From Moritella sp. PE36 (GTDB lineage Bacteria > Pseudomonadota > Gammaproteobacteria > Enterobacterales > Moritellaceae): a DNA stretch of 64,000 bases. Both the position numbers and the translations under genes were made by a program. Where the stretch lies: positions 1 to 64,000 of the forward strand of contig NZ_ABCQ01000005.1 in NCBI RefSeq assembly GCF_000170855.1. The letters run 5' to 3'. Positions 3,243 through 59,780 of this stretch are shown one piece after another (within the stretch, counting starts at the first letter, position 1; each line of letters starts with the position of its first letter). Below the pieces are notes generated by a model. That model saw only the letters and a program-made list of their open reading frames with translations, was not told the DNA's origin and did not search any database.

Positions 3243-4775
3243 TTACTTTGAGAGTTCAACAATCTGTAATGATAACTGATGTTGCGCTTGTAATTGCTGC
3301 TCAATTTTTAATGCCGCTGCACGTAATGGATGCTGGGCTAACCACTGTGCGGGTAAAGTGATGATTAAGGTATTTTCTTCTGCGAGAGTGAGTGAGAAAT
3401 TTGGGATCGTACCATCAGTGCGTCGCAAGGCTAATGTGCATGATACTCTTAAAATACGACAAAGCAGTAACGCACTTGCGTAGCTGATTGCTGATTGTTG
3501 CGCTAACAAAGATAAATTTAATTCATCACGCTGATTAATCAATAACGCCGACAGCAGTTGTTTCTGCGCTTTGGTAAAACCAAGCATCACAGTGTTATCG
3601 ATAATATAAGCGGCATGTTGTGGCGCTTTTTTATAATCAATTGATAAACCGATTTCGTGTAAGCCGCTGACGTAAGCCAGTAAAGGACCGGCTTGAGTAT
3701 CGTCTGCTGCAAGGGTAGATTTTAACTGATCGAAGGCTTTTAGCGCGGTGTGTTTAACACGCTCAGCTTGTTCTTGATCTAACTGATGTTTTACCATCAA
3801 TCCATAGACCGTTTGTTGGCGAACATTGTGACTGGCACGGAGTCCGGTCATTTCGTAAATCACGCCTTCTCTTAACGCGCCCCCGGCTAAAAACATATTG
3901 TTAATTTCGAGGCTTTCAAATAACGCGGTAAGAATAGCTAAACCACTGGTAAATACTGGCTTTCTATCGGTTGCTAAGCCTTTAATATTCAGGTTATCAA
4001 TATGAGCACAAGCAATAGCTTGCTGCTGAATACGGTGTAGTTTAGCCAGTGTTATGTGTTCGTTTTCACCTTGTGCAACCATAATTTCTTGCAGGGCTTG
4101 GATCGTACCGGAAGCGCCGATACAAGTATCCCAGCCCAAGGTTAAATACTTTTCTAGCAGAGGGTTCAACACCGCTTTTGCCGCATCAATAGCCAGCGTA
4201 AAGTTATGTTGATTGAGCTTACCATCTGTAAAATAGTGCTTTAACCAAGTGACACAACCCATTTTAAAGCTATAAAGTAATTTAGCTTGGGCTTGTTCAC
4301 CAATAATGAGTTCAGTGCTAGCGCCGCCAATATCCACAACTAAACGATTACCTTGACCACTGCTGGTATAGGCAACGCCTTTGTAGATAAGTGCAGCTTC
4401 TTGTTCCCCGGAAATAATATTTACCGGATGAGCCAATATTTGTTCTGCTGTTGTCAGAAACTCCGCTACGTTATTCGCTAAGCGTAATGTCGCCGTGCCA
4501 ACAATACGAATATTCGCAGTCGGAATATCCTGTAATTGTTCTGCAAACAAACTTAAGCAATCCCAACCACGTTGTAACGCGGCTTGGTCAAGATGATTGT
4601 TGGCATCAAGGCCGGCAGCAAGTCTCACTTTGCGTTTAACTTTAGCTACAGTTTGTAGACTATTGTTAATTTCACGAACAACCAGCATATGAAAGCTGTT
4701 TGAACCAAGGTCAATGACAGCATATAAATTTGACGAACGTTTTTTACTCACACTAATCACTTTATCTATAAACAA
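3243..4775 (-). CDS. gppA: Guanosine pentaphosphate phosphohydrolase / exopolyphosphatase
   Basis: A member of the Ppx/GppA family, which hydrolyses pppGpp to ppGpp and can trim polyphosphate. The ASKHA ATPase-fold signatures are clear: A-V-I-D-L-G-S-N-S-F-H-M-L-V-V-R-E near residue 20 and V-V-D-I-G-G-A-S-T-E-L near residue 145. The C-terminal half has the HD-like region (L-H-E-I-G-L-S-I-D, Q-H-A-A-Y-I-I). GppA rather than Ppx is favoured by close match to the E. coli GppA N-terminus and by the E. coli rhlB-gppA order. It starts 9 bp after rhlB, so the pair forms one operon. It is 510 residues, slightly longer than E. coli GppA because of an N-terminal extension of about 12 residues. Confidence 0.9.
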   Translation of the reverse strand: MFIDKVISVSKKRSSNLYAVIDLGSNSFHMLVVREINNSLQTVAKVKRKVRLAAGLDANNHLDQAALQRGWDCLSLFAEQLQDIPTANIRIVGTATLRLANNVAEFLTTAEQILAHPVNIISGEQEAALIYKGVAYTSSGQGNRLVVDIGGASTELIIGEQAQAKLLYSFKMGCVTWLKHYFTDGKLNQHNFTLAIDAAKAVLNPLLEKYLTLGWDTCIGASGTIQALQEIMVAQGENEHITLAKLHRIQQQAIACAHIDNLNIKGLATDRKPVFTSGLAILTALFESLEINNMFLAGGALREGVIYEMTGLRASHNVRQQTVYGLMVKHQLDQEQAERVKHTALKAFDQLKSTLAADDTQAGPLLAYVSGLHEIGLSIDYKKAPQHAAYIIDNTVMLGFTKAQKQLLSALLINQRDELNLSLLAQQSAISYASALLLCRILRVSCTLALRRTDGTIPNFSLTLAEENTLIITLPAQWLAQHPLRAAALKIEQQLQAQHQLSLQIVELSK

Positions 4776-21875: not shown

Positions 21876-21951
21876 TGGTGGGCTGTGAAGGATTTGAACC
21901 TTCGACCAATTGATTAAAAGTCAACTGCTCTACCAACTGAGCTAACAGCCC
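21876..21951 (-). tRNA. tRNA-Lys (UUU), copy 3 of the operon
   Basis: A 76-base cloverleaf with anticodon TTT, standard T-loop (GGTTCAAATCC) and encoded CCA. Last gene of the array in the direction of transcription. Confidence 0.97.
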
Positions 21952-22006
21952 CCGAATTCTTTCTTTTATAGCTTTATGTTTTATGACATAAACACCACAA
22001 TTTAAG

Positions 22007-22082
22007 TGGTGGGTCCTACTGGGCTTGAACCAGTGACCCTCGCCTTGTAAGGGCGATGCTCTCCCAACTGAGCTAAGGACCC
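22007..22082 (-). tRNA. tRNA-Val (UAC), copy 3
   Basis: A 76-base cloverleaf with anticodon TAC and encoded CCA. Confidence 0.97.
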
Positions 22083-22121
22083 ACAATATTTTTTAGCGAT
22101 AGTTGTGGCTATCGTTTAAAC

Positions 22122-22198
<77 letters not shown>

Positions 22199-22249
22199 AC
22201 AATTTTGTTTTCACTGCTTATCTAATAATAAGAAATAACAGTAAGAAAG

Positions 22250-22325
22250 TGGTGGGCTGTGAAGGATTTGAACCTTCGACCAATTGATTAAAAGTCAACT
22301 GCTCTACCAACTGAGCTAACAGCCC
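22250..22325 (-). tRNA. tRNA-Lys (UUU), copy 2
   Basis: Same sequence as the other tRNA-Lys copies; anticodon TTT, encoded CCA. Confidence 0.97.
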
Positions 22326-22381
22326 CCGTATTCTTTCTTTTTATAGCTTCATGTCTTATGACATAAACACCACAATTTAAG

Positions 22382-22457
22382 TGGTGGGTCCTACTGGGCT
22401 TGAACCAGTGACCCTCGCCTTGTAAGGGCGATGCTCTCCCAACTGAGCTAAGGACCC
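22382..22457 (-). tRNA. tRNA-Val (UAC), copy 2
   Basis: Same sequence as the other tRNA-Val copies; anticodon TAC, encoded CCA. Confidence 0.97.
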
Positions 22458-22496
22458 ACATTATTTTTTAGCGATAGTTGTGACTATCGTTTAAAC

Positions 22497-22573
<77 letters not shown>

Positions 22574-22611
22574 ACAATGCTGTGTCTTACTTACGTAAGT
22601 TATAAAGAAAG

Positions 22612-22687
22612 TGGTGGGCTGTGAAGGATTTGAACCTTCGACCAATTGATTAAAAGTCAACTGCTCTACCAACTGAGCTAACAGCCC
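22612..22687 (-). tRNA. tRNA-Lys (UUU), copy 1
   Basis: Anticodon TTT, encoded CCA; identical to the other copies. Confidence 0.97.
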
Positions 22688-22752
22688 CCGAATTCTTTCT
22701 TTATAGTAAATCCCGTTACTTATCTTATAAAGATATAACCAGACTTAATATA

Positions 22753-22828
22753 TGGTGGGTCCTACTGGGCTTGAACCAGTGACCCTCGCCTTGTAAGGGC
22801 GATGCTCTCCCAACTGAGCTAAGGACCC
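22753..22828 (-). tRNA. tRNA-Val (UAC), copy 1, first of the operon
   Basis: Anticodon TAC, encoded CCA. This is the promoter-proximal tRNA of the eight-gene array. Confidence 0.97.
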
Positions 22829-26032: not shown

Positions 26033-26362
26033 CCGTAAGGACGCACAACATAGTTGGTAAGGATTACTGACTAGATATGGATTATCGAATAGGATTTACC
26101 ACAGGATGTGGTCGCAAGGAAAAGTCTTCAGGATGAAGATGCGATGGACACTCAACGGATATGAGTATAAAGGACACCTCCAGGATGGAGATGAAATAAA
26201 TCGGCATGATTTATTGTACCAGGATGGTAATAACAAAAACCCGATGGATTGGGAGTTAAACCTAAAGGAAATTAGGTAAGTCAATTTGCAGGGAGCAAAA
26301 TAAGTTCAAGGATTGGGCTACATGACTACTTAAGGACGGCATTTATGCCGTCCTTTTCTTTT
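26033..26362 (+). ncRNA. csrB: CsrB-family small RNA, copy 1
   Basis: CsrB RNAs sequester the translation regulator CsrA through many GGA motifs in hairpin loops. About 18 GGA motifs are visible in 300 bases, several in perfect hairpins of the C-A-G-G-A-T-G type (for example 26099-26111, and within CTTCAGGATGAAG, CTCCAGGATGGAG, TACCAGGATGGTA). The segment AAAGGACACCTCCAGGATGG is shared with E. coli CsrB as I recall it. Promoter elements TTGCAG (25999-26004) and TATAGT (26021-26026) set the start near 26033. An 11-bp terminator stem (26332-26342 with 26345-26355) and T-rich tail end it. Confidence 0.92.
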
Positions 26363-26679
26363 ATCTGCGTTTTATTTCTACTGCTCTTTCAATGATAACC
26401 AAGCGCTTGATTTGCTGGTTTATCGTACGATCCCTTGCCGTTATCGCTCATTTATTACCATGCCTTTTGATAGCGTTTAACAACGCTTACATGAATAGTT
26501 GTTGAGCATTCGATTGCCATCCAGTTATATTCATTTTATCTTCTCTACAGCGTAATTACCCCGCTCAAAATGGCAGTTTTATTAACCTGCTTTTATTTAA
26601 AATAACGCATGTAATAGTGCTAGGTAAGATGCCTATGTTGATAGTAATCTGATGCTAATTCGAGCAAGAGAACAAGATT
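26363..26679 (+). other. Intergenic region between csrB copy 1 and qnr
   Basis: About 317 bases without a convincing gene. It must contain the qnr promoter; I see no LexA box of the kind reported for qnrB. Confidence 0.6.
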
Positions 26680-27629: not shown

Positions 27630-27945
27630 CAGAGACGCAGGAAGCTCATCAGGATGATGACTTGGCACTCTATATGAAACCGCAAGGATGTGGTGGATTA
27701 CAAGGATAGCACTCACGGATTTAGAGTGAATAAAGGACACCTCCAGGATGGAGATGAGAAGCAGGTTAGGATGACTTGTTAGGCTAGGATTGCCAAAGGA
27801 ACAACTCAAAGGATTGGGGAAAAGTGAATCACCTAATGGATTAGGTAAATGTCTAAGTGCAGGGAGCACAATCAGTTCAAGGATATGAGCTATTACGACA
27901 ACGTAAAAGGGCTGCACTAGTTACTAGTGCAGCCCTTTTCTTTTG
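27630..27945 (+). ncRNA. csrB2: CsrB-family small RNA, copy 2
   Basis: About 17 GGA motifs in 280 bases. It shares with copy 1 the AAAGGACACCTCCAGGATGG block and the GCAGGGAGCA block near the 3' end. A CATCAGGATGATG hairpin lies near the 5' end. A very stable terminator (27905-27920 paired with 27923-27938) plus T-rich tail ends it. The start is inferred from TATATT at 27618-27623; the -35 element is weak, in keeping with activator dependence. No protein-coding gene is supported here. Confidence 0.9.
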
Positions 27946-54550: not shown

Positions 54551-54640
54551 GTTTTATTACAGTAATGTATTAGTAGTTTAAGGTATAATCGCCAGGTTTG
54601 AAGTTTTACGCTTTTATTTTACACGCAATTGAGGTGCCGA

Positions 54641-55783
54641 ATGGCAACAGCCGTGGGTTTATATGATGATATTCGTCCTTTTAATGATGACGAGATAGCA
54701 AGTGTTGTTGAACGCTTAGTTAACGATAACGAATTTATTACTGCGATCGCGCATTTCCAGTTTCCGCGTTTGATCAAGCATTTTAGCTGGGTAATATTCC
54801 CAATGATCCGCATGCTTCTGCGCGGTAAATGTCGCAACATCACCAGCGTGAGTGAAATTCAGCACGAAGTGATCGCTTATATGGAAAAAATGATTGCGAA
54901 CACCACCACTCAGGTTACCTTTAATGGTACCGAGAAGTTGGATAAAGATAAGAATTATTTATTCATTTCCAATCACCGTGATATTGCCATGGATCCGGCA
55001 TTTTTAAACTGGGCATTGCATCACCATGGTTTTGATACCGTACGTATTGCGATTGGTGATAATTTATTGAAAAAGCAATTTGTATCAGACTTGATGCGCT
55101 TAAATAAAAGTTTCATCGTCAAACGTTCCGCCAAGGGTGTACGTGAAATGATGGCCGCATTTAAGTCATTATCTGGTTATATTGCGCATTCAATACAAAC
55201 GGAGCAACAGTCGATTTGGATTGCCCAAAAAGAAGGCCGTGCTAAAGATGGCAATGACCAAACTGATCCCGCGATTTTAAAAATGATGTATATGAATGGT
55301 AAGGGCCAGAAAATTAGCTTTCCAGAATATATGAAATCATTAAACATTGTGCCAGTGACTATCTCTTATGAATACGATCCAAACGATGTGGCGAAAGCCA
55401 ATGAACTTTGTCAATTAGCAACAACTGGTGAGTATAATAAAGCTGAATTTGAAGACATAGATAGTATTGTGCAAGGTATTAATGGTTTTAAAGGTCACGT
55501 AAATATTACTTTTGGTGACGTCATTGCCGATGATATTGCTGATGCGAATGAATTAGCTGAACGTATCGATAAAACGATAGATAAGAATTATTACCTGCAT
55601 GCGACTAATTTATTAGCCGCCGAGCAATTACATGCAACTGCGGCATATAAACAAGCGGCAAGTAGCGTGTCTGCAGAGCAACGGGCTAAATTTGCAGCAC
55701 ACTTGCAAGCTATACCGGCCACGTTACATGCCACTGTACTCGCTGGTTACGCTAAGTCAGTCGAAAAACAGTTAGGCAAATAA
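54641..55783 (+). CDS. Glycerol-3-phosphate/lysophosphatidate acyltransferase-like protein
   Basis: A 380-residue protein with a PlsC-type acyltransferase domain. The catalytic motif is S-N-H-R-D-I-A-M-D-P near residue 118 (H-x4-D), and I-W-I-A-Q-K-E-G-R-A is the third block. It is predicted to transfer acyl chains to a glycerolipid at the inner membrane. I start it at ATG 54641, six bases after GAGG; a TTG at 54629 is in frame. Exact substrate unknown. Confidence 0.8.
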   Translation: MATAVGLYDDIRPFNDDEIASVVERLVNDNEFITAIAHFQFPRLIKHFSWVIFPMIRMLLRGKCRNITSVSEIQHEVIAYMEKMIANTTTQVTFNGTEKLDKDKNYLFISNHRDIAMDPAFLNWALHHHGFDTVRIAIGDNLLKKQFVSDLMRLNKSFIVKRSAKGVREMMAAFKSLSGYIAHSIQTEQQSIWIAQKEGRAKDGNDQTDPAILKMMYMNGKGQKISFPEYMKSLNIVPVTISYEYDPNDVAKANELCQLATTGEYNKAEFEDIDSIVQGINGFKGHVNITFGDVIADDIADANELAERIDKTIDKNYYLHATNLLAAEQLHATAAYKQAASSVSAEQRAKFAAHLQAIPATLHATVLAGYAKSVEKQLGK

Positions 55784-55787
55784 TCAT

Positions 55788-55818
55788 AATCAGAGATAGC
55801 CTCAGGTTATCTCTGATT
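55788..55818. terminator. Hairpin between acyltransferase gene and porin fragment
   Basis: An 11-bp perfect stem (55788-55798 with 55808-55818) followed by AAAATGTTTT; it serves converging ends. Confidence 0.75.
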
Positions 55819-55975
55819 AAAATGTTTTTCGTATCCCCAAATTAAATCCTAATGCATTAACTTCAGTGGTGATAGCAATATCGGTAAACTGATAGTCTAA
55901 GCCAAATCCCCAGGCCACCGCAGTATTACTATCTTCAAATGTTATATTTTTATTATCCGCAAAAAATTTACCCAT
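55817..55975 (-). pseudogene. C-terminal fragment of an outer-membrane beta-barrel protein
   Basis: A 52-residue frame reads like the last strands of a small barrel: A-V-A-W-G-F-G-L-D-Y-Q-F-T-D, then V-N-A-L-G-F-N-L-G-I-R-K-T-F. Alternating residues and a terminal Phe are the outer-membrane insertion signature. No upstream coding region or signal peptide exists, so the gene has lost its 5' part, perhaps when the adjacent RyhB copies were inserted or rearranged. Confidence 0.62.
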
Positions 55976-56001: not shown

Positions 56002-56030
56002 TTGCAAACGTTAATGAGAATGATTACTAT
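56002..56030 (+). promoter_or_regulatory. Fur-regulated promoter of ryhB copy 1
   Basis: TTGCAA (56002-56007) and TACTAT (56025-56030) are 17 bp apart. The stretch 56010-56028 matches 14 of 19 positions of the Fur box and covers the spacer and -10 element. Confidence 0.75.
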
Positions 56031-56036
56031 TAACTT

Positions 56037-56208
56037 GTTCTTCAGGAAGTCAGTATTTATTTCGGTAGGACAAGACATTGCTCACATTGCTTCCGGGTTA
56101 ATTTTAATCCATTACTCCTTGCAGGGTAAACCGAATTTTTTCGGGCCGGTAGATCAAACTTCTTATCCCTCGATAAAAGTGAAGTTTGATTGATACCGGC
56201 TTTTTATT
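56037..56208 (+). ncRNA. ryhB1: RyhB-family small RNA, copy 1
   Basis: The core GACATTGCTCACATTGCTTCC region (56074-56094) is the same as the conserved heart of E. coli RyhB, which silences mRNAs of iron-using proteins when iron is scarce. A Fur-box promoter lies just upstream, and a long stem (GCCGGT ... ACCGGC, 56145-56200) with TTTTTATTTT ends the RNA. At about 170 nt it is longer than the 90-nt E. coli RNA, as in Vibrio. No protein frame here is convincing. Confidence 0.9.
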
Positions 56209-56379
56209 TTCTGCTGCTTTATAATTCCAACGCTTCTGTATTAACGCGCTATTCTCGATTATCCGCATCGCTTTACGCCGTCAGGTATTCTGTGTTTCAG
56301 TCATTGAACATGATATTTAATGAGGCTTTTTTATTTTTGTGATTAACTGCAATTATTTTAGCTTTATATAAATAAACAC

Positions 56380-56408
56380 TTGCAAACGCAAATGAGAATC
56401 GTTATTGT
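56380..56408 (+). promoter_or_regulatory. Fur-regulated promoter of ryhB copy 2
   Basis: TTGCAA (56380-56385), 17-bp spacer and TATTGT (56403-56408), with a Fur box at 56388-56406 (14 of 19 positions). Confidence 0.75.
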
Positions 56409-56414
56409 TAACTT

Positions 56415-56587
56415 GTTCTTCAGGAAGTTAGTATTTATTTCGGTAGGACAAGACATTGCTCACATTGCTTCCGGGTTAATTTTAATCCATTACTCCTTGC
56501 AGGGTAAACCGAATTTTTTCGGGCCGGTAGATCAAACTTCTTATCCCTCGATAACAGAGAAGTTTGATCAATACCGGCTTTTTATTT
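56415..56587 (+). ncRNA. ryhB2: RyhB-family small RNA, copy 2
   Basis: A second RyhB, about 95% like copy 1 across the transcribed part, with the identical core at 56452-56472 and a terminator with GCCGGT ... ACCGGC and T-rich tail. Differences cluster at the promoter and at the terminator loop, with covarying changes in the stem. Confidence 0.9.
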
Positions 56588-56984
56588 TCTGCAACAAATC
56601 ATTCTTTATTAACTCAAATCAAACATTTCGATACTTACCTAGTGTATTATTTTTAATCATCATGGCTTCTTTTTACACATAAATACCGTGGTGTAAGATT
56701 CTTTTCCACATATTATAAAATCGTTAGATAACTTTGGATCTTACTTATTACTATCGTAAGCAACTGTTAACTAATGTATTTTTGTCATTGCCTTCAAGAT
56801 CTTTACAGCGTGTCTATTTTTTTGATCGTCATTGTTAACAGAGTTATCCACAGTTAGATCAAGATCTATGATCGAGTGGTTAAGATCTGATCTCAAGATA
56901 TATTTTTATCATCAACATAGCGTGAATTCGCGGCTTGTGGCATGCTTAGTCTATTCATCATTTATTTCATTGAGTTTAATTTTT
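56588..56984 (+). other. polA upstream region
   Basis: About 400 bases without a gene. It holds the DnaA box and GATC cluster described separately and must hold the polA promoter. Confidence 0.6.
56702..56892 (+). promoter_or_regulatory. DnaA box and GATC cluster upstream of polA
   Basis: A perfect DnaA box TTATCCACA lies at 56844-56852, with a one-mismatch box TTTTCCACA at 56702-56710. Eight GATC sites fall within 56737-56892, five of them in 36 bases. The string ACAGAGTTATCCACAG plus the following GATC resembles the R4 end of E. coli oriC. It may bind DnaA and SeqA and tie polA expression to replication; this is inference. Confidence 0.55.
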
Positions 56985-59780
56985 ATGTCTACGATCCCTA
57001 GCAATCCCCTTGTGCTTGTCGATGGCTCTTCGTATCTGTTTCGTGCTTATCATTCACCGCCGCATTTAACCAATGCTGAAGGTATGGCTACGGGCGCTGT
57101 GTATGGTGTCGTTAACATGTTAAAGAGCTTATTAACCCAGTTTGACCCTAGCCATATTGCGGTTATCTTTGATGCCAAAGGTCCTACATTCCGAAATGAA
57201 ATGTACCCAGAATATAAAGCTAATCGTCCACCGATGCCAGATGATCTCCGTTGTCAGATCGAACCTGTGCATAAAGCTGTTAAAGCGCTGGGTTTACCGT
57301 TGATCTGTATTTCGGGTGTTGAAGCCGATGACGTGATCGGTACGATCGCGAAACAAGCAAGCGCAGAAGGTCGTGCTGTATTGATCAGTACTGGCGATAA
57401 AGATATGGCGCAGTTGGTTGATGAGAATGTCACGCTGATCAACACCATGACGGATACGGTATTGGATCCACAGGGTGTTAAAGACAAATTTGGTGTACCA
57501 CCTGAGTTGATCATTGATCTGCTCGGGCTCATGGGTGATGCGTCGGATAATATTCCTGGCGTACCTGGTGTAGGGGCGAAGACGGCGTTAGGCCTATTAC
57601 AGGGGTTAGGTAGTATTAAAGATATCTACAATAACTTAGACGCGATTGCCCCTTTAGGTTTCCGTGGCTCGAAAACCCTGGCTAAAAAGATGATCGAACA
57701 TAAAGACAGTGCAGAAATTTCTTATGCATTAGCGACGATCAAACTCGATGTTGAAACCGGTGTAACTCTTGATGATCTGGCAATTTCAGAAACAGATACC
57801 GATGCATTGGCTGAGTTATACCAGCAGATGGGCTTTAAACGTTGGTTAGCGGCGTTATTAGGTGGTGCTGATGCAACTAAACATGTGTATGCGGGTAAAG
57901 CAGCAAAATCGAATTCAGCGGCAAGTGAGTCTGACAGTAATGACGTTGTAGCCCCTTGTACAATTGATCGCAGTAATTATGAAACGATTTTAACCCAAGC
58001 AGATTTTGATCGCTGGTTAGAGAAGTTACAAAAAGCCGAGCTGTTTGCGTTCGATACTGAAACCACGAGTCTTAATTATATACAAGCTGAGTTAGTGGGT
58101 CTGTCATTTGCCGTTGCAGAAGGCGAAGCCGCTTATTTACCGGTTGCCCATGACTACATTGACGCACCTGAACAATTAGATCGAGACCATGTATTAGCGT
58201 CATTAAAAACATTGCTTGAAGACAGTAATGCTAAAAAAGTTGGCCAAAATTTAAAATACGACAAATCAGTGTTAGCAAACTACGGCATTAACTTAGCGGG
58301 TATTGCGTATGACACCATGATTGAATCGTACGTTTATAACAGTATTGCCACGCGCCATGATATGGACAGCTTAGCGGATAAATACTTAGGTCATAAAACC
58401 ATTAGTTTTGAAGAGATCGCCGGTAAAGGTAAAAAACAATTAACCTTTAACCAGATTGAATTAGAGCAAGCGTCGGCGTATGCAGCAGAAGATGCCGATG
58501 TTACCTTGCGATTACACAATGTGCTGTGGCCAAAGATTGAAGCTGAACCCTCACTGGTGGCGTTATTTAACGAGGTTGAATTACCGTTAGTGAGTATTTT
58601 ATCGTCGGTTGAACGCCAAGGTGTATTGATTGATAAATCAAAACTTGATGCGCAAAGTGTTGAACTCGGAGCGCGTATGTTGGAGCTGGAAGCTAAAGCA
58701 CACGAAATTGCCGAGCAACCATTTAACCTGAGTTCGCCAAAACAACTGCAAGAAATTCTATTTGTGAAAATGGAATTGCCGGTGATTAAGAAAACGCCAA
58801 AAGGTGCAGCGTCGACAGCAGAAGACGTATTACAAGAACTGGCACTAAATTATCCATTACCAAAAATAATTTTAGAGTACCGCAGTTTAAGTAAACTAAA
58901 ATCAACCTATACCGATAAACTACCAACCTTGATTGAAGAAAAAACCGGGCGGGTACATACCTCTTATCATCAAGCGGTTACTGCGACAGGTCGTTTATCA
59001 TCAAGCGATCCAAATCTACAGAACATTCCTGTTCGTGCGGGTGAAGGTCGACGTATTCGTCAGGCATTTATTCCTGAAACAGGTTATAAATATGTCGCTG
59101 TGGATTACAGCCAAATTGAATTACGTATTATGGCGCATTTATCACAAGATAAAGGGCTGCTAACGGCGTTCTCGGAAGGTAAAGATATTCACCGCGCAAC
59201 AGCAGCGGAAGTATTCTCTGTTGAGCTTGATGACGTCACCAGTGATCAACGTCGTAGTGCCAAAGCGATTAACTTCGGGCTTATTTATGGTATGAGTGCA
59301 TTCGGCTTAGGTCGTCAGTTAAACATCCCACAGAAAGAAGCCAAGAAATACATGACACGCTATTTTGAACGTTACCCAGGTGTATTAACTTACATGGACG
59401 AAACGCGTAAAGTAGCTAAAGATAAGGGTTATGTTGAAACGTTATCGGGTCGTCGTTTATATCTACCAGAAATTAATGCCCGTAATAAAATGAGTCAAAT
59501 GGCGGCAGAGCGCGCTGCGATCAACGCACCAATGCAAGGTACAGCCTCTGATATTATCAAAAAAGCGATGATTAATGTTGCCGGTTGGATGGAGACTGTA
59601 GAAACAAATTCTATTCGTATGCTTATGCAGGTGCACGATGAATTAGTCTTCGAAATTAAAGAAGAACATGTTGAAGCTTATGTTGTGAAGATCAAAGAAC
59701 TGATGGCGGCGGCAATGTCGTTAGATGTACCACTGCTTGCTGAAGCGGGTGTGGGTGATAACTGGGATGAAGCGCATTAA
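56985..59780 (+). CDS. polA: DNA polymerase I
   Basis: A 931-residue family A polymerase. Residues 1-290 are the 5'-3' nuclease ([22 protein letters not shown]). About 340-530 is the 3'-5' exonuclease with intact acidic residues (F-D-T-E-T-T-S, Y-A-A-E-D-A-D). The polymerase part has [21 protein letters not shown] and V-H-D-E-L-V-F-E. The ATG at 56985 ([11 protein letters not shown]) aligns with E. coli; an in-frame start at 56832 would translate through the DnaA box. Confidence 0.97.

Follow-up and report, generated by a model that had tools for sequence, protein, structure and literature searches.

Tandem RyhB-type small RNA genes, each with its own promoter, Fur-like box and terminator, upstream of polA in Moritella

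Results

Two near-identical RyhB-type genes in tandem

Analysis of a 64,000-nucleotide stretch of DNA from the marine bacterium Moritella sp. PE36 (contig NZ_ABCQ01000005.1, positions 1 to 64,000; hereafter the window) revealed two near-identical RyhB-type small RNA (sRNA) genes in tandem on the plus strand, between an acyltransferase gene and polA (Table 1). The host genome, G000, is a 5.2-Mb draft in 131 contigs. Two tandem RyhB genes about 380 bp apart had been proposed from inspection of the letters; exact cores, polA synteny, conservation in 11 Moritella species and RNA structure bear this out, and the measured offset is 378 bp. Alignment of the two copies delimited a duplicated block of about 209 bp (about 56004-56212 versus 56382-56590) with 95% identity, and the homology has sharp edges at the −35 box and just beyond the T-run of the terminator; thus the unit that is alike corresponds exactly to promoter, RNA and terminator.

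Both copies contain the exact 21-nt RyhB core. The two cores were the sole sites in the window at three or fewer mismatches (shuffle mean 0.01), and in the whole genome at two or fewer mismatches the core was found only at the two ryhB copies. The invariant GTTCTTCAGGAA, located about 7 nt past the −10 box in both copies, was taken as the putative 5' end of the transcripts. A long stretch of the RNA is common to records of Moritella sp. DT_65 and M. dasanensis. A comparison with phage records yielded no match.

Table 1 Features of the tandem ryhB locus and its neighbours (window coordinates)
Feature	Position	Strand	Basis or note
Acyltransferase gene (PF01553), upstream neighbour	54629..55783	+	5' of ryhB in 10/11 Moritella genomes
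Promoter, copy 1	56002..56030	+	Sequence; −35 TTGCAA 56002-56007, 17-bp spacer, −10 TACTAT 56025-56030
Fur-like box, copy 1	56010..56034	+	Consensus match; overlapping 19-mers 56010-56028 and 56016-56034, best 15/19
RyhB copy 1, predicted transcript of ~169 nt	56037..56205	+	Ends predicted by promoter spacing, sequence conservation and the terminator
RyhB pairing core GACATTGCTCACATTGCTTCC, copy 1	56074..56094	+	Core search
Intrinsic terminator, copy 1	56145..56205	+	Folding; hairpin 56145-56200 plus T-run
Spacer between copies	56206..56379	+	Homologous in every 2- or 3-copy array
Promoter, copy 2	56380..56408	+	Sequence; −35 TTGCAA 56380-56385, 17-bp spacer, −10 TATTGT 56403-56408
Fur-like box, copy 2, GCAAATGAGAATCGTTATT	56388..56406	+	Consensus match; 14/19
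RyhB copy 2, predicted transcript of ~169 nt	56415..56583	+	Ends as for copy 1
RyhB pairing core, copy 2	56452..56472	+	Core search
Intrinsic terminator, copy 2	56523..56583	+	Folding; hairpin 56523-56578 plus T-run
polA (DNA polymerase I), downstream neighbour	56985..59780	+	3' of ryhB in 11/11 Moritella genomes

Promoters, Fur-like boxes and terminators

As originally predicted, each copy has a separate promoter with a 17-bp spacer, an overlapping Fur-like box and a terminator of its own. Both promoters are weak, matching the consensus at 8 of 12 positions each, and the Fur-like box covers the spacer and the −10 in both copies. All 19 Moritella ryhB copies share a −35 TTGC and, at an identical distance, a −10 of the form TAnnnT; the position of the Fur-like box was likewise kept in all 19, with matches of 13-16/19. 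Matches to the Fur consensus of at least 14/19 numbered 13 on the plus strand of the window, including the ryhB boxes, and 10 on the minus strand; in DNA this rich in A and T, chance alone often gives scores of 14-15/19. Since 14/19 matches recur across the window, the ryhB boxes persuade by their place and conservation and not by their score, and on these grounds Fur-like boxes over the ryhB promoters appear credible.

TTTTT follows directly after each terminator hairpin. Both RNAs folded better than 200/200 shuffles (z −4.6 for copy 1 and −5.0 for copy 2), and a pair in the terminator stem changes from A-U to G-C in 3/17 copies. A simple promoter and terminator scan proved unsuitable as a guide, as it missed both long hairpins and also both promoters, which at 8/12 each fall under the scan threshold of 9; inspection and folding were needed instead.

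Membership in the RyhB family

Each copy scored 32.6 bits against the Rfam family RF00057 (E 7e-4 in a 1.2-kb search), aligned at the core, and both fall below the curated gathering score of 55 bits. The original prediction had named a low covariance score as evidence against it; the score is formally low, yet not decisive, because the experimentally demonstrated RyhB of Shewanella oneidensis (RACE, 168 nt) is also missed by Rfam (PMC2964681). A RyhB locus in G218 is likewise under the gathering score, at 49.8 bits. Searches with R1, a covariance model built from the Moritella ryhB copies, detected RyhB genes in several other families, and most of the loci tested pass RF00057 gathering; therefore the relation to RyhB is real. 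By core, synteny and promoter, the Moritella genes are RyhB-type genes that lack a formal RF00057 match. The arrangement of ryhB 5' of polA on one strand was also found outside Moritellaceae, in G286 and g25 genomes (family f25).

Conserved RNA bodies and divergent promoter segments

Comparison of the two window copies revealed 108/109 identical positions in the RNA body versus 29/35 (83%) in the promoter/Fur segment. The single body difference (56051/56429) lies outside the core, and the terminators also differ. Between sister species, the body of each copy was 99–100% identical versus 93–96% for the spacer and 85% for the downstream flank; the greater conservation of the body than of its flanks points to constraint on both copies, and gene conversion possibly assists the identity of the bodies. 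Between the two subclades the spacer is about 76% identical and gapped. The first copy departs from the last at 6–9 of the 109 positions of the body in G008 and G009, with most of the changes in the 5' arm.

Tandem genes had been expected to increase or diversify the iron-sparing response. An increase is plausible, whereas diversification is disfavoured here by the single body difference, the shared core and the concentration of changes in the promoter/Fur segment. The same RNA under a different promoter/Fur switch makes extra dose or a shifted iron threshold likelier than new targets.

Copy number and history in Moritella

ryhB was found at the polA locus in 11/11 Moritella genomes, as one copy in G001, G002, G004, G006 and G007, two in G000, G009 and G010, and three in G005 and G008; G003 holds at least two, a number left uncertain by Ns inside its ryhB array (L061 about 3578-4074, minus strand). 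A midpoint-rooted polA tree with full support grouped the six species carrying at least two copies in one clade, which excluded the five single-copy species. This pattern is most simply explained by a single duplication in the ancestor of the six-species clade, followed by two separate gains of a third copy, so that the comparison with relatives proposed for dating the duplication would place it once, in that ancestor. The spacers between copies are homologous across the whole six-species clade, and a search of both array flanks for the origin of the spacer found none. The middle copy of each three-copy array is chimeric, its 5' side matching the last copy and its 3' side the first, with the switch point inside or adjoining the RNA; this suggests unequal crossing-over between misaligned copies, and growth of the array by such recombination would account for the one to three copies among relatives. 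Among the 383 genomes of the order that lie outside Moritella (394 in total; core and R1 searches), none showed two adjacent genes with this core, a result that applies to genes with this core or an R1 match because RyhB of the Shewanella type may be missed.

Several variants were observed at these and related loci. G007 carries a second, distant RyhB-like gene (L070 4289-4415, minus strand; G007:C1:794288-794414), 73% identical. Its core is GACATTGCTCACATGGCTTCA, its −35 box is the same, its Fur box (AATGATATTCATTATCATT) is nearly palindromic, and an aminopeptidase-like gene lies close by. The ryhB core of G004 holds an extra 9-nt repeat, GACATTGCTCACATTGCTCACATTGCTTCC, giving a longer pairing stretch (L062 about 3918-3948, minus strand; G004:C27:130919-130948). 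In G005, a 942-aa ORF (L063 4512-7340, minus strand), whose product is probably a secreted repeat protein, lies directly 5' of ryhB and replaces the acyltransferase gene. On the minus strand of the window, a 52-aa ORF at 55817-55975, partly common to G010, has an end resembling the C-terminus of an outer-membrane beta-barrel; it had no Pfam or NCBIfam match and is perhaps a gene remnant.

Predicted targets

Pairing energies were calculated with a 30-nt core segment against background starts; folding of full-length RyhB–sodB duplexes had given long gapped duplexes of little meaning and was replaced by this segment. In 11/11 species the core is predicted to pair with the start region of sdhC, at −22.9 to −25.4 kcal/mol; 0/51 background starts and 12/2000 shuffled cores were as strong. 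Repression of sdhCDAB by RyhB is thus the best and most likely target prediction. In the sodB leader, TGAGCAATG offers a match of 9 bp some 45 nt 5' of the ATG, kept in 10/11 species; its pairing energy is unremarkable, with 18/51 background starts equally good, and sodB is possibly controlled through this leader. Examination of ferritin starts for core pairing revealed no convincing site. Genome-wide, near-complements of the core numbered 21 (non-self) versus 10 for the reversed pattern.

Proposed mechanism and alternatives

We consider it highly probable that the locus comprises tandem, functionally equivalent long-form RyhB genes, switched by Fur and repressing through the core, with an effect of the second copy on dose or threshold. 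When iron is plentiful, Fe-Fur would sit on the boxes over both promoters and both copies would be silent; as iron falls, both would be transcribed, each to its own terminator. The RNAs of ~170 nt, presumably Hfq-dependent, would act through their common core on mRNAs for iron-using proteins, blocking and destabilising them; the most likely target is sdhCDAB, at its start codon, and sodB is a possible one, through its leader. The second copy would mainly add dose or, given its different Fur box and −10, alter how far iron must fall before RyhB is made; the target set would be unchanged.

It is unlikely that only one copy matters, with its twin reduced to a duplication remnant, silent or in decay, whose sequence gene conversion keeps alike. 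The promoters do differ, conversion could explain the near-identical bodies, and sister species show clear signs of unequal exchange; however, the TTGC-17-TAnnnT pattern and a Fur-like box are kept at both promoters in every species, at least two copies are retained in 6/6 species of the clade, and conservation is higher in each body than in the flanking sequence. Transcription past the first terminator, producing a longer two-copy RNA like the PrrH of Pseudomonas aeruginosa with a function derived from the spacer, would suit the tandem layout common to that organism and the homology of the spacer in all multi-copy species, but the first terminator is very strong, conservation of the spacer is clearly below that of the RNA, and copy 2 has its own promoter, so we regard this as quite unlikely. 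Divergence of the copies towards different targets is very doubtful: although first and last copies have moved apart in G008 and G009 and differences in activity between sibling RyhBs have been described elsewhere (PMC4211561), the window bodies differ at only one site, outside the core.

An assembly artefact or a collapsed larger array might be suspected from the draft state of the window genome and the Ns in the G003 array. The copies differ by about 5%, though, the spacer is unique, and the same layout is seen in the single-contig G008 (three copies) and G010 (two copies). Near-complete chromosomes contain one (G002, G007), two (G009, G010) and three copies (G008), so the tandem layout is not an assembly artefact; as an explanation of the window locus, an artefact or collapse is extremely improbable, and a collapsed extra copy is possible in draft G000 or in the draft single-copy genomes. 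Returning to equivalent, Fur-switched genes, we tentatively suggest that a recombining array of one to three copies, in which the Fur box and promoter drift from copy to copy around an unchanged RNA, may allow the genus to tune dose and threshold through unequal crossing-over, a possibility that we rate at somewhat short of even.

Relation to known systems

Tandem RyhB-type genes are already known, and the RNA itself is of a known kind; among the papers searched, none described RyhB in Moritella. RyhB of Vibrio/Aliivibrio and enterobacteria (RF00057) has the identical pairing core and its own terminator, as in Moritella, and a Fur-type promoter, which the Fur-like boxes would give Moritella too, but the Moritella RNA is about 169 nt, has a long conserved 3' part and falls below RF00057 gathering, and its copies are in tandem whereas theirs are single or distant. 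Shewanella RyhB is similarly long (168 nt in S. oneidensis), with a Fur box, and is missed by Rfam (PMC2964681); two tandem ryhB copies have been reported in S. amazonensis (PMC2964681). The S. oneidensis gene lies downstream of SO4716, in contrast to the position upstream of polA in Moritella, and S. oneidensis RyhB leaves sdhA and acnA unaffected (PMC2964681), whereas Moritella sdhC has a conserved predicted pairing site.

The PrrF1/PrrF2 pair of P. aeruginosa is likewise a tandem of near-identical RNAs that spare iron, each equipped with a promoter and a terminator, and is Fur-controlled, as we infer for Moritella; these RNAs have been described as analogues of RyhB in function that lack significant homology to it in sequence, and the pair has a 95-nt intergenic region and a read-through product, PrrH (PMC4211561, PMC2851614). 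A dated, repeatedly expanding tandem RyhB array joins these few cases. With one, two or three copies beside the same neighbour gene, the related species form a natural series that could test whether sRNA copy number sets the strength or the iron threshold of iron sparing, and the predicted RyhB control of sdh in Moritella would be unlike the situation in S. oneidensis.

Other repeated RNA genes in the window

Two CsrB-family RNAs, both above the Rfam gathering score, were found 1.6 kb apart on the plus strand (26054-26365 and 27632-27944), forming a second tandem pair of sibling sRNAs within the window. On the minus strand, eight tRNA genes at 21879-22828 are arranged in a repeated order with scores of 78.8 (three genes), 69.8 (three) and 64.1 bits (two), which suggests tandem duplication of a tRNA unit.
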